Assembly: GCA_035547835.1 (NCBI GenBank)
Contig: DASZTW010000006.1
Location: 5,001 to 69,000, forward strand
Direction of reading: 5' to 3'
Length of the DNA stretch: 64,000 nucleotides
DNA from: Acidimicrobiales bacterium
Lineage (GTDB): Bacteria > Actinomycetota > Acidimicrobiia > Acidimicrobiales > Iamiaceae
Shown: piece after piece, positions 12,454 to 56,551 of the stretch
How positions within the stretch are numbered: the first letter of the stretch is position 1
Layout of the letters: each line of letters begins with the position of its first letter
Position numbers and translations under genes: made by a program
Notes under the pieces: generated by a model
What the model saw: only the letters and a program-made list of their open reading frames with translations
The model's database searches: none
What the model was told of the DNA's origin: nothing

Positions 12454-12476
12454 ATGTCACAGGTCGTCGTCATGAT
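12454..12476 (+). promoter_or_regulatory. GTCACA-type promoter, copy 1 (PafBC-like architecture)
   Basis: ATGTCACAG, 8 nt, then CATGAT. The 9-8-6 spacing equals that of the mycobacterial LexA-independent DNA-damage promoter (TTGTCRGTG-N8-TAnnnT, read by PafBC). The same GTCACA core and spacing precede the genes at 32425 and 42954; copies 1 and 3 are nearly identical over about 30 nt. It lies just upstream of the sigma-like gene. Confidence 0.55.
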
Positions 12477-12517
12477 GGGGGTTGACGGGCGGACGACGAC
12501 GAAAGGCGGGCGCCACG

Positions 12518-41504: not shown

Positions 41505-42881
41505 ATGACGTCCACCTGGCAAGGCGATGCGTGCTCATTGGTCGACGCGTTCCGGCGCGGCGAGCACTCCCCGGTCGACGAGCTCGACGCGGCGCTGGCG
41601 GCGATCGACGCCAGCCCGCTCAACGCGTTCTGCCACCTCGAGGCCGACCTGGCCCGAGCGCGCGCGGCCGAAGCCGATGTCCGCTTGCCGTTCGGTGGCG
41701 TGCCGATGGGTGTCAAGCAGCTCGACCCCGTCGACGGTTGGCCCGCCACCGAAGCCTCCCTCGTGTTCGCGGACCGCACCTGGTCGTTCGACGCCACGCA
41801 GACGGCCCGCCTCCGCAGCGGCGGCGCCAACTTGATCGGTCAGACCACCGCCAGCGAGTTCGGCGGTCTCAACATCGGCCTCACCCGCCTCAACGGGGTG
41901 ACCCGGAACCCGTGGAACCACGAGCGCACCACGGGTGGGTCGTCCGCCGGCTCGGCGGCCGCGGTGGCCGGGGGGCTGGTCCCGATCGCCACGGGCGGTG
42001 ATGGCGGCGGGTCGATCCGAATCCCGGCGGGCTTTTGCGGCCTGGTCGGCATGAAAGGCACCGCGGGCCGGATCCCGCGCGGCCCGCACACCTCGATCGG
42101 GCCGCTGACGGTCGTGATGGGCTGCATGGCCCGCTCGGCGCGCGACGTGGCCCGGTGGTACGACGTCTGCGCGGGTTACGACCCTTACGACCCCTACTCG
42201 TTGCCCCGGATCGAAGGGTGGGAGCGCGACCTCGACCACCACGACCTCGCCGGCAAGAAGGTGGTGATCACGCCCGATCTCGGCGGCGCGGCCGTGGTCG
42301 CACCGGCGGTCGCCGGGCTCGTCAGAGCGCAAGCGGAGCTGCTGGCCAAAGACGCCGGGCTCGAGGTGGTCGACGTGCCGGTCGACCTACCGGGCTTCGG
42401 CTTCGAGTGGGCGATCATGAACCTCATCACGCTGCGCGAGGAGCTCGGCGATCGCTGGCCCGAGTGCAAAGACGAGCTGACCACCGAGATGGCGTTCGGC
42501 ATGTCGATCGCCGAGTCGACCTTGAACCTCGACCTCGCGGCCAAGGCCGAGGCGTCGCGACGGGCCATCAACGACGCCATGGCCGCCCTGCTCGGCGAAG
42601 TCGACTTCGTGATGACGGCCACCAACCCCGACGTGGCGTTCGGCGCCGAGATCGCCCTGAACACGCGGGTCCGCGAGCAGAAGGTGGGTCCGGAGAACAA
42701 CGGCGCCCTCACCATCCCGGCCAATGTCACGGGTGTACCAGCCATCTCGATCCCTTCCGGCACCGTCGACGGCCTGCCCGTCGGCCTCCAGGTCATCGGC
42801 CACCACCACAGCGATGCGTTGTTGCTCGACCTCGCCCGGATCGTCGAGGCCGAACGGCCCTGGCCCCTCGTCGCCGCCTGA
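41505..42881 (+). CDS. Amidase signature family hydrolase
   Basis: Ser-cisSer-Lys amidohydrolase, 458 residues. The triad is K71 (GVPMGVKQLD), S147 in TTGGSSAGS and S170 in GGDGGGSIRIP. It lacks a GatB partner nearby and the sequence departs from GatA, so a stand-alone amidase acting on small amides or acyl amides is more likely than tRNA amidation. ATG 41505 has TAGCAT 8 nt upstream. A hairpin follows the stop at once. Confidence 0.92.
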   Translation: MTSTWQGDACSLVDAFRRGEHSPVDELDAALAAIDASPLNAFCHLEADLARARAAEADVRLPFGGVPMGVKQLDPVDGWPATEASLVFADRTWSFDATQTARLRSGGANLIGQTTASEFGGLNIGLTRLNGVTRNPWNHERTTGGSSAGSAAAVAGGLVPIATGGDGGGSIRIPAGFCGLVGMKGTAGRIPRGPHTSIGPLTVVMGCMARSARDVARWYDVCAGYDPYDPYSLPRIEGWERDLDHHDLAGKKVVITPDLGGAAVVAPAVAGLVRAQAELLAKDAGLEVVDVPVDLPGFGFEWAIMNLITLREELGDRWPECKDELTTEMAFGMSIAESTLNLDLAAKAEASRRAINDAMAALLGEVDFVMTATNPDVAFGAEIALNTRVREQKVGPENNGALTIPANVTGVPAISIPSGTVDGLPVGLQVIGHHHSDALLLDLARIVEAERPWPLVAA

Positions 42882-42924: not shown

Positions 42925-42947
42925 ATGTCACAGGTGATCGTCATGAT
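42925..42947 (+). promoter_or_regulatory. GTCACA-type promoter, copy 3
   Basis: ATGTCACAG, 8 nt, CATGAT, then GGGGGT and ATG 42954, so the -10-like box ends 6 nt before the start codon and the transcript would be leaderless. Nearly identical to copy 1 (12454-12476) over GATGTCACAGGT and TCGTCATGATGGGGG. Confidence 0.55.
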
Positions 42948-42953
42948 GGGGGT

Positions 42954-43133
42954 ATGGCACAACCACAGCTCTCGTTGCTCGAAGCGCCGGTCGAATGGCG
43001 GCTCGACGAGCGCACCAAGGAGGTCGGTCGCCGGGGCGTCGCCCAGGCCCGGGCGGCGCTGCACGCGGCCATCCTCCGTGGCGCCGGCGAGCACCCCTCG
43101 CACGACGACGACGATCACCGCCACGCCGCCTGA
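42954..43133 (+). CDS. 59-residue protein with sliding-clamp-binding-like motif
   Basis: Starts MAQPQLSLLEAPVEWRLDE. The pentapeptide QLSLL at 5-9 matches the bacterial clamp-binding consensus QL(S/D)LF except for the last residue. The middle (RTKEVGRRGVAQARAALHAA) forms a likely basic helix and the tail is His/Asp-rich (HDDDDHRH). No family recognised with confidence. The promoter is of the GTCACA class shared with a RecB nuclease and a sigma-like gene. I infer a small DNA-damage-induced replisome-binding protein. The gene is real on the evidence of its promoter, codon use and leaderless ATG. Confidence 0.6.
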   Translation: MAQPQLSLLEAPVEWRLDERTKEVGRRGVAQARAALHAAILRGAGEHPSHDDDDHRHAA

Positions 43134-43280: not shown

Positions 43281-43865
43281 ATGTCACCGCCATGCCCCCC
43301 ACTCGCCCCGCCCCAGCCCCGAACACGGCACCTCCGCCACCTGCTGCTCGTCTCGGTGGCCCTCACGGTGCTCCCGTTGTCGGGCTGCACCACACGCCGG
43401 GCCACTGGCGCCACCGCGGGCCCGCCCGGCACCGCGACGGTCGAGCGCGCGATCGACGGCGACACCATCGACGTGCGGATCTCCGGCCGCACCGAGCGGG
43501 TTCGCCTGCTCGGCATCGACACCCCCGAGACCAAGGACCCACGCCGGCCCGTGCAGTGCTACGGCAAGGAAGCCAGCGCGCACACCGAAGCACTCCTGCC
43601 GGCGGGGACCCGGGTACGGCTCGTCCGCGATGTGGAGAGCCGCGACAAGTACGGCCGGCTGCTCGCGTACGTCTACCGGCTGCCCGACGGGCTCTTCGTC
43701 AACCTCGACCTCGCCAAAGGCGGCTTTGCCGCGCTGTTGACGTACCCGCCCAACGTCGCCCACGCCGGCGAGTTGCGCGCCGCGGTCGACCAGGCGCGGG
43801 CCCGCGGCAGCGGCCTGTGGGGCACATGCGGCGGGCCGGGCCGACCGGCGTCGACCACCGGCTGA
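43281..43865 (+). CDS. Secreted thermonuclease-family lipoprotein
   Basis: A staphylococcal-nuclease-fold protein anchored outside the membrane; 194 residues. Hydrophobic signal and lipobox LPLSGC with C36. The nuclease domain has AIDGDTIDV (57-65), the arginine and Asp/Glu cluster RLLGIDTPETKD (75-86), CYGKEA (93-98) and the second arginine in DKYGRLLAYVYR. All expected catalytic residues appear present. Ends with GSGLWGTCGG. ATG 43281 is the first start before the signal. Confidence 0.88.
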   Translation: MSPPCPPLAPPQPRTRHLRHLLLVSVALTVLPLSGCTTRRATGATAGPPGTATVERAIDGDTIDVRISGRTERVRLLGIDTPETKDPRRPVQCYGKEASAHTEALLPAGTRVRLVRDVESRDKYGRLLAYVYRLPDGLFVNLDLAKGGFAALLTYPPNVAHAGELRAAVDQARARGSGLWGTCGGPGRPASTTG

Positions 43866-43932
43866 GCTGCGGCGCGCGGGGCCGGGTCCGTCCTCGACGG
43901 CGCGGGCGGGTCGGGCCGGTAGCGTCATGGTC

Positions 43933-44781
43933 GTGACGGAACTGGCCCAGCAGCTCGGCTTCGGCGACGACGACCGCGTGCTGATCATCAACTGCGACGA
44001 TCTCGGCTCCAGCCATGCCGCGAACGTCGGCGTCTACGAGGCGCTCCGCACCGGCATGGCCACCAGCGCCACCTTGATGGTCCCCTGCCCGTGGGCCCGC
44101 GAGGCCGCCTCCCGCTACCGCGGCGAGGACATCGGCGTGCACCTCACGTTGAACGCCGAGTTCGACCTCTACCGCTGGGGACCGATCACCCATGCGCCCT
44201 CGCTGCTCGACGGCGACGGCGGCTTCCCCCGCACGCAGCGCGATGTGTGGGACCACGCCGACCTCGACGAGGTCCGCCGCGAGCTGCGGGCGCAGGTCGA
44301 GCGGGCGATCCTGTGGGGGTTCGACGTCAGCCACCTCGACTCGCACATGGGCACGCTCCAGTTCCGGCCCGAGTTCTTCGACGTCTACCTCGACCTCGCC
44401 GTCGAGTTCGACCTGCCCCTCCGGCTGTCGGGCGCGTCGACCGAGCGCATGATCGGTTTCCCGTTCCGCAAGCTCGCCGCCGCGGAAGGTGTCCGCTTCC
44501 CCGACCACCTCGTGGTGGTCCCGGGCGTCGGAAGCCGCCGGACGATCGAGCAGGCGCTGTTCGACTTGCGGCCCGGCATCACCGAGATCTACGTGCACCC
44601 CACGGTCGACACCCCCGAGCTGCGGTCGTTCGCCGACGACTGGCCTGCCCGGGTCGACGATCACCACCTCGTCACGTACGACACCGATTTCCCCGCGATG
44701 GTGGCCAGGGCCGGCCTGAAGCTCATCGGCTACCGCGAGCTGCGCGACCTCCAGCGTCGCGAACGCCGCCCCGCGGCCTGA
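43933..44781 (+). CDS. ChbG/YdjC-family carbohydrate deacetylase
   Basis: Metal-dependent deacetylase of the ChbG/HpnK family acting on N-acetylated sugars or glycolipids; about 282 residues. Metal motif NCDDLGSSH near 21-29 (numbering from GTG 43933), GVHLTLNAEF near 68-77, and DSHMGTLQFRPE near 137-148. GTG 43933 is favoured over the in-frame ATG 43927 because TAGCGT ends 7 nt before it. The HpnK subgroup acts in hopanoid synthesis, but no hopanoid gene is adjacent. Confidence 0.88.
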   Translation: MTELAQQLGFGDDDRVLIINCDDLGSSHAANVGVYEALRTGMATSATLMVPCPWAREAASRYRGEDIGVHLTLNAEFDLYRWGPITHAPSLLDGDGGFPRTQRDVWDHADLDEVRRELRAQVERAILWGFDVSHLDSHMGTLQFRPEFFDVYLDLAVEFDLPLRLSGASTERMIGFPFRKLAAAEGVRFPDHLVVVPGVGSRRTIEQALFDLRPGITEIYVHPTVDTPELRSFADDWPARVDDHHLVTYDTDFPAMVARAGLKLIGYRELRDLQRRERRPAA

Positions 44782-52230: not shown

Positions 52231-52992
52231 TCAACCGCGGGCTGCCGCCCACAAGGCCGCCAAGTCGTGGGGTCGCACGTCGGCGAGCGTCGACACCTGC
52301 ACCACTCCGGGCTGCTCCGCGACGCCCGCCACGTTCGGCACGGCCAACGTCGGGACGCCGGCAGCCACGGCCGCGGCCACGCCGGTCGGTGAGTCCTCGA
52401 TGGCCAAGCCGTGAGCCGGCTCGATCCCCAGCCGGGCGGCCGCCGCCAGATACGGGTCCGGATGGGGCTTGCCGCGCGTGACCACGTCGCCGGTCACCAC
52501 CGCCGCGAACGTTCCGGCCGGCAGATGGTCGACGACCGAGTTGGCAAGGCCGGCCCACGACATGGTCACCAGCGCGCACGGCACTTCGGATCGGCGGAGG
52601 CCATCGAGCAACTCGTACGCGCCCGGTCGCCACTTCGGCTCGTGGGCGATCCGGTCCTGCACCTCGGCGGACAAGCGGTGCACGATCTCCTCTGGCTGCA
52701 GGTCGACCGAGCCGAGCCGCCGGATCACCCCGGCGGCGGCGAGCAGGTCGAGCCCGATCAGGCTGTGGGCCCGCCCGTCGTCCCAGTGCCCGCCGAACTC
52801 CTCGACCAGCGCGTACTCCGCGGCGATCCAGTCCGGCTCGGTGTCGACGAGCGTGCCGTCCATGTCCCACATCACCGCGAACGGAGGGCTTTCGAGCGGG
52901 GTCGGCATCGATGCGGAGTCGACCGTCATGGCTGGATGATCCCCCGCCGCCGAGACGGCAGCGAAATCGGACACGCCCGGCCGCCTCGGCAT
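52231..52992 (-). CDS. HAD-superfamily phosphatase (beta-phosphoglucomutase-like)
   Basis: Haloacid-dehalogenase-type phosphatase, 253 residues from ATG 52992. Motif I DMDGTLVDTE near 43-52, a helical cap, motif II in ALVTMS, motif III lysine and IV acidic pair in TRGKPHPDPYL and AIEDSPTG. Nearest types are beta-phosphoglucomutase and sugar-phosphate phosphatases. ATG 52992 overlaps the dnaE2 stop (TGATG); ATGs at 52929 and 52908 are also possible. Coupling to dnaE2 makes it probably part of the LexA-controlled transcript, where a nucleotide-cleaning role would fit, but this is inference. Confidence 0.82.
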   Translation of the reverse strand: MPRRPGVSDFAAVSAAGDHPAMTVDSASMPTPLESPPFAVMWDMDGTLVDTEPDWIAAEYALVEEFGGHWDDGRAHSLIGLDLLAAAGVIRRLGSVDLQPEEIVHRLSAEVQDRIAHEPKWRPGAYELLDGLRRSEVPCALVTMSWAGLANSVVDHLPAGTFAAVVTGDVVTRGKPHPDPYLAAAARLGIEPAHGLAIEDSPTGVAAAVAAGVPTLAVPNVAGVAEQPGVVQVSTLADVRPHDLAALWAAARG

Positions 52993-55900
52993 CAGCGGAA
53001 GTCGCGGGAGCGGAGCGTGCCGGCCGCCAGCGGCAGCGGCTCCAACTTCTCGGCAACCACGTTCACCACCCCCTCGACCTTTTCCAGCCGACCGCGCACC
53101 AACAGGGCGGGGCACGTGCGGGCCAGCCGGCGGTAGCGAGCCCAGCACCCCTTCGAGCACACCACGTTGATGAGGCCGGTCTCGTCTTCGAGGTTGACGA
53201 ACACCGTGCCGCCTGCCGTGGCCGGGCGCTGGCGGTGGGTCACGACCCCACCCACCGTGACCTTGGCCCGGTCGGGTAGCTGGTGCAGCCCCACTGCGGT
53301 CGTGACGCCGAGGCGGTCGAGGGTGTCGCGCACGAACCGGGTGGGGTGGCCGTCGGGCGCCACCCCGGTGGCCCACAAGTCGGCGACTGCCGTCTCCGCT
53401 GGCGACAGTCCCGGCAGGGGCGGCGCCTCCACCCCGGTGACGACACCCGGCAACCGGCCCGGCCCCCCTTGGGCCACCGCCCCCGCCGCCCACAACGCAG
53501 CCCGCCGCGCCATCCCTCCCCCGCCAGACCCGGCCCCGTCGGACGGCCCGGCACCGGCAAAGCAGGCAAACGCGCCGGCGGTGGCCAACGCCTCGAGTTG
53601 CGGCTGGGACAGGCCACACCGTCGGGCGACGTCTTCCATGCCGGTGTACGGGCGACCCGCCGCGATGCGCTCGGCGAGCTCCGCGCCGATGGTGCGCACC
53701 GACGAGATGCCCATGCGGACCGCCACGTCGTTGTGGCTGCCAGGGCACGGCTCGAGCGTGGCCTTGGCCGACGATGCAGCGAGGTCGGGGGAATGCACGA
53801 CCACACCGTGTCGGCGTGCGTCCTGCACGAGCGAGTGCGGCGAGTAGAACCCCATCGGCTGCGCGTTCAACAGCGCCGCGCAGAACGCAGCCGGCTCGTA
53901 CAACTTGATCCACGCCGAGCTGTACACGAGGTAGGCGAAGCTCACCGAGTGGCTCTCGGGGAAGCCGAAATTGGCGAACGCGGCGAGCTTGTCCCAGATG
54001 GCGTCCGCGATGTCGCCGGTGATCCCCCGCTCGGCCATACCGCCGTAGAAACGGGCGCGCAACCGCTCCATCCGTTGCGCCGACCGCTTCGCCCCCATGG
54101 CTTGGCGGAGCTGATCGGCGTCGGCGGCCGAGAACCCACCGACGTCGATGGCCATCTGCATGAGTTGCTCTTGGAACAGCGGGATGCCGAGCGTCTTGCG
54201 CAGCGCCGGCTCGAGCAGTGGGTGGAGGTACGTGACCGGCTCGCGGCCATTGCGGCGACGGATGTAGGGGTGGACGGACCCGCCTTGGATCGGGCCGGGC
54301 CGGATCAGCGCCACTTCGACCACCAAGTCGTAGAACTCGCGCGGTCGCAAGCGGGGCAGCGTGGCCATCTGCGCCCGGGACTCGACTTGGAACACCCCGA
54401 CCGAGTCGGCCCGGCACAACATGTCGTACACCGCGGGATCCTGTGGAAGCTCGGCCAAGTCGAGCTCGTAGTCGCGGTGCGCACGGATCAGGTCGACCGC
54501 TTCGTGCAAGGCGGTGAGCATCCCCAGGCCGAGCAAGTCGAACTTCACCAGCCCCTCGGCCGCGCAGTCGTCCTTGTCCCACTGGAGCACGCTGCGGCCT
54601 TCCATCCGACCCCACTCGACCGGGCAGACCTCGACCACCGGCCGGTCGCAGATCACCATGCCGCCCGAGTGGATGCCGAGGTGGCGGGGGGCGTCGAGCA
54701 GCTCACCGGCGAGGTCGACGACCGCCGCCGGGACCTCGCCGCCGGCGTCGGGCAAGGGCCCCCAGTGGTCGATCTGCTTGGCGAAAGCATCCTGCTGGCC
54801 GGTCGCGTAGCCGAGCGCCTTGGCCATGTCGCGGATGGCCGACCGCGGCCGGTACGTGATGACGTTGGCGACTTGGGCGGCGTTCTGGCGGCCGTAGCGC
54901 GCATAGACGTACTGGATCGCTTCCTCCCGCCGGCCGCTCTCGATGTCGAGGTCGATGTCGGGCGGGCCGTCGCGCTCGGGGGACAAGAAGCGCTCGAACA
55001 ACAGACCGAGGCGGACCGCGTCGGCCCGGGTGACCCCGAGCGCGAAGCAGACCGCCGAGTTCGCCGCCGACCCGCGGCCCTGGCAGAAGATGCCGGCCCG
55101 CTCGCAGAACTGGACGATGTCCCACACCACGAGGAAGTAACCCGGGAAGCCGAGCTGCTCGATCACTTCGAGCTCGTGGTCGATCTGGGTCCAAGCTCTG
55201 GCGACCAGGGGGTCGGTGGCGGAGGCGTGCCGAGGCCCGTAGCGGCGGGTGGCACCTTCGACAGCGAGCCGCCGCAGGAACGCCATCTCGTCGAGCCCGT
55301 CGGGGCACGGGAACGGCGGCAACTTGGGCGCCACCAGCCGGAGGTCGAACGCGCACTCCCGCCCGAGCGCCGCCGCCCGCTCCACCACCCCCGGCCAACG
55401 GGCGAACCGGCGGGCCTGCTCGGCGCCGGAACGCAGGTGGGCACCAGCCCCGGCGGGGAGCCACGGATCGACTTCCTCGAGGCTGCGGCGGGCGCGGACA
55501 GCGGCGAGGGCGGTGGCCAACCGCCGGCGGGTCGGGACGGCGTAGTGCACGTTGTTGGTGGCCACCAACGGCAGCCCGGCACGCACCGCCAGCTCGGCCA
55601 GAGCGTCGTTGCGAGCGGAGTCGAGCGGGTCGCCGTGGTCCCACAGCTCGACCGCGACGTTGGCGGGCCCGAACGCGGCCAGCAGCCGTTGCAGCTCACG
55701 GGCTGCGGCTGACGGGCCGGCATCGACCAGCGCGGCGGGCACCGCGCCTTTGCGACAACCGGTGAGCACCAGCCAGTGGTCGGCGGCCCCGGCTGGGCCG
55801 GCTCCCGTTCCGCCGGGACGGCTCGCGGGGGTCGTGCCGAGCGAGCCGCCCGAGCCCAGCAGCGCCAACTCGTCGAGCGTGAGGCGGGGCGCGCCTTTCT

Positions 55901-56441
55901 CCCCCGCCATCTGCGCCTCGCTGATGGCGCGGGCCAGGCGGGCGTAGCCGACCGGATCGCGGGCCAGCACCACCACGTGGCGGCCTGGCGGATCGGCGAC
56001 CCCCGCCGGGGTGCGGGCGGCACCGTCGAGCGTGAGCTCGGCACCGAACACCGTGGGCAGGCCGACCTCACGAGCCGCCTCCGCGAAACGGACCACCCCG
56101 TAGAAGCCGTCGTGGTCGGTGAGCGCGAGGGCTTCGAGTCCCAACCGGTCGGCTTCCTCGGCCAGCTCCTCGGGATGCGACGCGCCGTCGAGGAAGCTGA
56201 AGTTCGAGTGGCAGTGGAGCTCGGCGTACGGCACACCCGCGGCACGGTCGGACCGCGGTCGGCGGTCGGGCGCGACGTACGGCGAGCGTTTGCGCGACCA
56301 GGCCGGGCTGTCGCCACCGTCGGCCCCAGCAGGCACCGCGTCGGAGCGGCCGTCGCGACGACGCCCCTGTTGGTGGCGGACCTTGCCGGAATACCGTTGC
56401 TCGAGCTCCCTCCAGGGGATCTGCGGGTTCCCGAACCCCAT
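52992..56441 (-). CDS. dnaE2: Error-prone DNA polymerase III alpha subunit DnaE2 (ImuC)
   Basis: Catalytic subunit of the damage-induced mutasome. 1149 residues from ATG 56441. PHP domain begins at HCHSNFSFLDGASHPEE (76 on); the polymerase active-site PDIDLDIE is near 494-501; the C-terminal OB fold is near 1060-1130; it ends SRDFR, as in the family. ATG 56441 (MGFGNPQIPWRELE) is where family homology begins; an in-frame ATG at 56495 would place the LexA box inside the gene. Works with ImuA' and ImuB, encoded at 60922-63329. Confidence 0.95.
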   Translation of the reverse strand: MGFGNPQIPWRELEQRYSGKVRHQQGRRRDGRSDAVPAGADGGDSPAWSRKRSPYVAPDRRPRSDRAAGVPYAELHCHSNFSFLDGASHPEELAEEADRLGLEALALTDHDGFYGVVRFAEAAREVGLPTVFGAELTLDGAARTPAGVADPPGRHVVVLARDPVGYARLARAISEAQMAGEKGAPRLTLDELALLGSGGSLGTTPASRPGGTGAGPAGAADHWLVLTGCRKGAVPAALVDAGPSAAARELQRLLAAFGPANVAVELWDHGDPLDSARNDALAELAVRAGLPLVATNNVHYAVPTRRRLATALAAVRARRSLEEVDPWLPAGAGAHLRSGAEQARRFARWPGVVERAAALGRECAFDLRLVAPKLPPFPCPDGLDEMAFLRRLAVEGATRRYGPRHASATDPLVARAWTQIDHELEVIEQLGFPGYFLVVWDIVQFCERAGIFCQGRGSAANSAVCFALGVTRADAVRLGLLFERFLSPERDGPPDIDLDIESGRREEAIQYVYARYGRQNAAQVANVITYRPRSAIRDMAKALGYATGQQDAFAKQIDHWGPLPDAGGEVPAAVVDLAGELLDAPRHLGIHSGGMVICDRPVVEVCPVEWGRMEGRSVLQWDKDDCAAEGLVKFDLLGLGMLTALHEAVDLIRAHRDYELDLAELPQDPAVYDMLCRADSVGVFQVESRAQMATLPRLRPREFYDLVVEVALIRPGPIQGGSVHPYIRRRNGREPVTYLHPLLEPALRKTLGIPLFQEQLMQMAIDVGGFSAADADQLRQAMGAKRSAQRMERLRARFYGGMAERGITGDIADAIWDKLAAFANFGFPESHSVSFAYLVYSSAWIKLYEPAAFCAALLNAQPMGFYSPHSLVQDARRHGVVVHSPDLAASSAKATLEPCPGSHNDVAVRMGISSVRTIGAELAERIAAGRPYTGMEDVARRCGLSQPQLEALATAGAFACFAGAGPSDGAGSGGGGMARRAALWAAGAVAQGGPGRLPGVVTGVEAPPLPGLSPAETAVADLWATGVAPDGHPTRFVRDTLDRLGVTTAVGLHQLPDRAKVTVGGVVTHRQRPATAGGTVFVNLEDETGLINVVCSKGCWARYRRLARTCPALLVRGRLEKVEGVVNVVAEKLEPLPLAAGTLRSRDFR

Positions 56442-56452
56442 CGCGCGAGTAT

Positions 56453-56466
56453 CGAACGTCTGTTCG
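56453..56466. promoter_or_regulatory. LexA (SOS) box of dnaE2
   Basis: CGAAC-GTCT-GTTCG, a perfect match to the actinobacterial/Gram-positive SOS box. It ends 11 nt upstream of the dnaE2 start. The same 14 bases occur before imuA' at 63341-63354. Confidence 0.9.
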
Positions 56467-56551
56467 TTCTCTGCAACTCGCTTCGCCGGGATCATGCGGG
56501 CGACGCCGCCGCCCCGGCCCGGAAGCCGAGGAGGGACCGCGATTCGCCACG

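Follow-up and report, generated by a model that had tools for sequence, protein, structure and literature searches.

A class-wide miniprotein family of Acidimicrobiia with a clamp-type N-terminal motif and a damage-type promoter

The window analyzed here, i.e., the whole stretch of 64,000 nucleotides, carries on its forward strand a gene for a protein of 59 amino acids (42954..43133, +), which is present as a single copy in its own genome and is supported by orthologues in relatives. Its open reading frame runs from an ATG at 42954 to a TGA at 43131-43133, and these coordinates and this length match exactly those given in a preliminary description of the locus. The same description held that the gene stands alone, a claim that did not survive locus comparison, since a co-directional amidase gene upstream and thiolase, SNase, and YdjC genes downstream recur in relatives. 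Within the window, the amidase gene (41505..42881, +) is the upstream neighbour found in many relatives, and the conserved downstream neighbours encode a thermonuclease-like SNase (43281..43865, +) and a YdjC-family carbohydrate deacetylase (43927..44781, +). The recurrent order is amidase, small gene, thiolase (at some loci), SNase, and YdjC, all on one strand. Among the 69 loci compared, some of which are mutual duplicates or too short to contain all neighbours, the downstream genes include thiolase at 42 loci, SNase at 27, and YdjC also at 27. About 10 kb off, and considered as context only, lies a convergent gene for the error-prone polymerase DnaE2 (52992..56495, -), which is linked to the small gene in many relatives. 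Comparison of coordinates by hand placed a convergent dnaE2 at 6-31 kb from the small gene in its own genome and in roughly 17 relatives, three of which have genomes made up of one to three contigs. This linkage is not universal, given that about 1.6 Mb separates the two genes in genome G028. Furthermore, genome G057 (98% complete) keeps the small gene and its promoter and has no detectable DnaE2 or IMS_C (DinB).

An alignment of 25 sequences produced the consensus M-A-R-Q-L-[TSV]-L-[IL]-E-x(n)-W-R-L-D-E-R-T-R-E-x-G-R-R-G-x-A-x-A-R-A-A-L-x(n)-A-A. Near its start, the protein bears the clamp-binding-like motif Q5-L6-S7-L8-L9 (42966..42980, +), assigned on the basis of the alignment, class-wide conservation, and likeness to the tail of DinB; the peptide QLSLL had been placed at residues 5-9 by the preliminary description, where it is indeed found. 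The segment W15-x-L17-D18 is followed by a conserved helix at residues 19-43 (43008..43082, +), assigned from conservation and from an AlphaFold2 model (mdc8a7a5694ed). Modelling of 12 sequences with AlphaFold2 yielded this single confident helix, as anticipated for the region behind the motif, with mean pLDDT values per block of 95-97 over residues 21-40 and with both ends flexible. The N-terminus containing the motif lies outside the helix and is non-helical and of low confidence in these models. Residues D18, T21, G25, G28, A32, and A35/L36, which are mostly small, are conserved at a spacing of three to four positions and so would fall on one helix face, a stripe that suggests a tight helix-helix contact. 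From the helix to the C-terminus, length and composition differ among homologues. The His/Asp-rich tail previously listed as a feature is not kept in them; only the C-terminal Ala-[Ala/Gly/Ser] is.

This C-terminal Ala-Ala (43125..43130, +), which is A[AGS] across homologues, was considered as a possible proteolysis signal on the basis of ending counts. Among 96 homologues, the last two residues were AA in 68, AS in 11, and AG in 9, meaning that 68/96 have the AA ending of the ssrA-like ClpXP pattern (LAA/AA) and 20/96 end in AS or AG. Covariation of the protein ending with the tmRNA tag was also looked for in 20 genomes and was not supported, as the tags end in AA in 19 of them, whichever ending the small protein has. 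Since the C-terminus does not follow the tag, the degron idea is weak, and the small protein may at best be turned over via this end. Genome G502 contained two loci (L197 and L209) that both scored as full-length tmRNA, possibly because of duplication or contamination.

A search with one sequence retrieved a single-copy orthologue from 42 of 61 relatives, and a profile search detected homologues in 126 of 395 sampled Acidimicrobiia genomes, or 101 of the 268 of good quality. These homologues are present across dozens of families within the class. When a sample of the whole phylum was searched with the profile, convincing matches were found solely inside Acidimicrobiia; weak matches in large frames outside the class were treated as chance. 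The preliminary description had proposed looking in relatives for short QLSL proteins, and its idea would have fallen with orthologues that are confined to close strains or that do not keep QLSLL; homologues turned out to occur throughout the class, and 91 of 96 carry QLxL. Named records with orthologues were Acidimicrobiales, Acidimicrobiaceae, and Aquihabitans MAGs, according to a contig search that ran on a five-sequence subset of the alignment. The protein and the family profile had no match in Pfam, NCBIfam, or PDB, and no relative of the protein was detected in the viral contigs searched. Clamp-docking peptides and PafBC-type promoters are already known, but as far as these searches go both the miniprotein family and its combination with a damage-type promoter are undescribed.

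The small gene is preceded by a PafBC-type promoter (42926..42947, +) consisting of a -26-like element, TGTCACAGG (42926-42934), and a -10-like element, CATGAT (42942-42947), a pattern common to recA and uvrB. The two elements are seven nucleotides apart (TGTCACAGG-N7-CATGAT), and only 6 nt separate the second from the ATG, which corresponds to the leaderless damage-type promoter that had been described. The association with stress proposed at the same time is strengthened, as this promoter matches those that precede recA, uvrB, and rmuC in its own genome as well as the recA promoters of relatives. Upstream DNA of the homologues reads TGTCACACC-N7/8-[GC]ATACT-N6-ATG almost throughout, the small gene's own box being a CAGG variant. 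A box situated 24-32 nt ahead of the start was found in 80/96 homologues versus 1.5% of background ATGs.

Across its own genome, the pattern TGTCACA-N10-ANNNT matched 15 times and the reversed control pattern 0 times. Box-led genes confirmed through Pfam were recA, uvrB, rmuC, a LysM gene, a DUF222 gene, a comM-type Mg-chelatase gene, rpsF, and AbiEi/DUF559. Most box-led genes start 26-32 nt past the box, and the comM-type gene does so at 85 nt. By eye, an nrdR-like frame follows the LysM gene and the DUF222 gene has an HNH-like C-terminus; box-led AddB/RecB-like and sigma-like frames were likewise named by eye, with no Pfam match. Among relatives, recA is boxed in 24/30, typically as TGTCACACC-N8-TAGGGT. 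The window itself holds a second damage-type promoter at 12455-12476 (+), TGTCACAGGTCGTCGTCATGAT, identical to that of the small gene at 20/22 positions, which precedes a frame of 249 amino acids that resembles a sigma factor by eye and has no Pfam match; a TTG at 12482 could give it a leaderless start. Further box-led genes of this genome (L053, L051, L057, and L059) encode a 103-aa protein, a 168-aa HNH-like protein (by eye), AbiEi/DUF559, and a weakly AbiEi-like protein.

LexA-type boxes (GAAC-N4-GT[AT]CG) were detected within 200 nt upstream of about a dozen homologues versus ~1.4 expected. This suggests that certain lineages may have placed the small gene under both SOS and PafBC-type control. 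Boxes of this kind (TCGAAC-N4-GTACGA and variants) lie 48-95 nt ahead of the small gene at L007, L011, L012, L015, L016, L017, L018, L022, L024, L047, L179, and L186. The recA of the same genome as the window (L033, minus strand, 1431 and 1501) has a LexA-type palindrome, TCGAACGGGCGTTCGT, and a PafBC-type box 70 nt apart. Exactly two WYL genes are encoded in this genome, in tandem, at about 269.5-271.4 kb of contig G000:C7. We infer from these promoter patterns that PafBC would induce the small gene.

The consensus for binding to the clamp is QL(S/D)LF, and variation from it is tolerated (PMC9690074, PMC3919608). An N-terminal Q-[LI]-x-[LF] was found in 91/96 distinct homologues, compared with 2.6% when the N-terminal regions were shuffled; L173 was left out of the count by eye because its match falls within the helix. 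The other 5/96 have no recognisable motif. The Q, L, and L of the motif are invariant in the 25-sequence alignment and show synonymous codon variation, which indicates selection on the peptide itself. Between motif and helix, the linker measures 5 to 42 residues with the motif retained, as expected of a tethered short motif. A QL(S/D)LF-like motif is present in a loose form: F gives way to L/I/V at position 5 in most cases, and R is frequent at position 3, so that affinity for the clamp could be low.

Placing starts with the aid of the promoter provided a partly blind check on the motif. Twelve of 102 rows had no box at the first-assigned start, and in nine of these a good box was present further upstream, followed in all nine by a start codon 28 nt past it. 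All nine re-placed starts led to QL[RHS]L[VIL] or QLALPL in the N-terminal region, a motif that was newly exposed in seven cases (L153, L156, L158, L165, L167, L180, and L182) and already visible in two (L161 and L170). The remaining three rows (L046, L151, and L185) had no convincing box.

In the DinB proteins of the same genomes, RQL[ST]L[DE][DE] or RQLSFD directly follows the IMS_C domain, and DinB of the genome studied here carries RQLGLFDDD at this site, where Pol IV is known to have its clamp motif. Scanning the phylum for a box, a leaderless start, and QLxL together revealed no further small-protein family, and two box-led repair-type proteins with the same layout. One is a UvrD-like helicase from another class of the phylum (L231 in G150); it pairs this box with a leaderless start and begins with MESAQLGLALD. 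The other is a DnaQ-like exonuclease (L219 in G054) in a 475-aa frame with a TGTC-type box that starts with VEQLGLDDD.

Taken as a whole, these patterns are best read as those of a small adaptor or modulator that is induced by damage and docks on the clamp, and we regard this as reasonably likely. The clamp reading derives from the form and the setting of the peptide and is supported indirectly by the shape of the motif, its terminal flexible position, a linker of variable length, and the agreement with the DinB tail; on these grounds we infer a role at the clamp. The conservation of the helix, in turn, points to a second contact beyond simple blocking. According to the mechanism that we propose, DNA damage would act via PafB/PafC-type WYL activators to switch on the leaderless promoter, in common with recA and uvrB. 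The flexible N-terminal peptide, QLSLL here and QLxL[LIV] in homologues, would then dock, like the similar DinB tail, in the hydrophobic pocket of DnaN, the sliding clamp, and the rigid conserved helix would bind a second partner, which could be a different repair protein or a further copy of the miniprotein. In this way, the protein might tether or exchange a factor at damaged forks, and its lifetime may be shortened by the disordered tail, which ends in Ala-Ala here and in Ala-Gly/Ser elsewhere.

The main rival, rather unlikely in our assessment, is a protein acting purely as a competitor, whose peptide would fill the clamp pocket, displace polymerases, and slow or reroute replication after damage, with the helix serving only for dimerisation (two peptides for two clamp sites) or stability. 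A small, mostly flexible protein with a terminal motif and a damage-type promoter would suit this role, the T/G/G/A/L stripe of the helix could give a homodimer, and SocB is a precedent for blocking elongation via the usual clamp-binding motif (PMC9690074). However, conservation of the helix equals or exceeds that of the peptide, which is beyond the need of a simple blocker, and position 5 of the motif is weaker than the consensus. Similarly improbable is a damage-response factor whose QLxL docks on a target other than the clamp, such as RecA, RNA polymerase, a protease, or another repair enzyme, the likeness to clamp motifs being a coincidence. Short motifs are promiscuous, and the tolerance of R at position 3 and of L/I/V at position 5 would fit such a target, but DinB of the same genomes has the same motif and preceding Arg at its clamp-binding place, and the box-led UvrD-like and DnaQ-like proteins likewise have QLGL at their starts.

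We consider it very improbable that the protein works exclusively with the translesion polymerases DnaE2 or DinB, as a dedicated partner and functional stand-in for ImuB, as the convergent linkage to dnaE2 might suggest: the distance between the two genes in G028 argues against it, and the strict form of this idea was rejected on account of G057, which lacks both polymerases as far as detectable, yet keeps gene and promoter. Finally, the possibility of a spurious open reading frame, for which its size below length cut-offs and lack of family matches could be cited, is negligible and refuted by the conservation of the protein with synonymous codon variation and of its start, promoter, and C-terminus.

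Under the preferred reading of a damage-induced clamp-docking adaptor or modulator, this family would represent a dedicated non-enzymatic clamp ligand under DNA-damage control, provided that it does bind DnaN. It is an unannotated family whose small size can let it escape gene callers, yet its promoter links it to recA within a class that has received little study. The promoter box, for its part, is usable as a marker of the damage regulon in Acidimicrobiia.

Among known systems, the mycobacterial damage motif is tTGTCRgtg-8 nt-TannnT (PMC5656591), read by PafBC through sigma adaptation at the -26 motif (PMC11804915). The promoters described here resemble those of the mycobacterial regulon in the TGTC element, the 8-nt spacing, the ANNNT -10 element, and their presence at recA and uvrB, and the tandem WYL genes of the genome may correspond to PafB and PafC. 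On the other hand, the clade studied here reads TGTCACACC or TGTCACAGG and not TGTCRGTG, the full element being absent, with CAC/CAG in place of GTG, also at recA. The regulon is predicted from sequence in this clade, and the small-protein family was found in Acidimicrobiia only. SocB, a toxin of Caulobacter, is likewise a non-polymerase protein proposed to dock in the DnaN clamp pocket (PMC9690074). The miniprotein differs from it in sequence and in its damage-type promoter, and no SocA-like adaptor or antitoxin adjoins the small gene, whose neighbours are the amidase, thiolase, SNase, and YdjC genes. Its likeness to beta-clamp-binding peptides such as the DinB/Pol IV tail lies in Q-L-x-L-hydrophobic within a flexible terminus, with letters close to those of DinB from the same genomes. 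It differs from them in having the motif at the extreme N-terminus, no enzymatic domain, and usually L/I/V instead of F at position 5. Eukaryotic p21, which occupies PCNA and displaces polymerases, and PAF15 offer a working analogy only: they too are small, flexible, and damage-controlled with a clamp-docking peptide, but there is no homology, and the PCNA motif QxxI/LxxFF is absent from the miniprotein. Extending this analogy, we tentatively propose, as a doubtful idea, that the family could be a class-wide bacterial counterpart of p21/PAF15, i.e., a damage-induced, short-lived clamp gatekeeper that would choose which proteins reach the clamp, independently of translesion polymerases.
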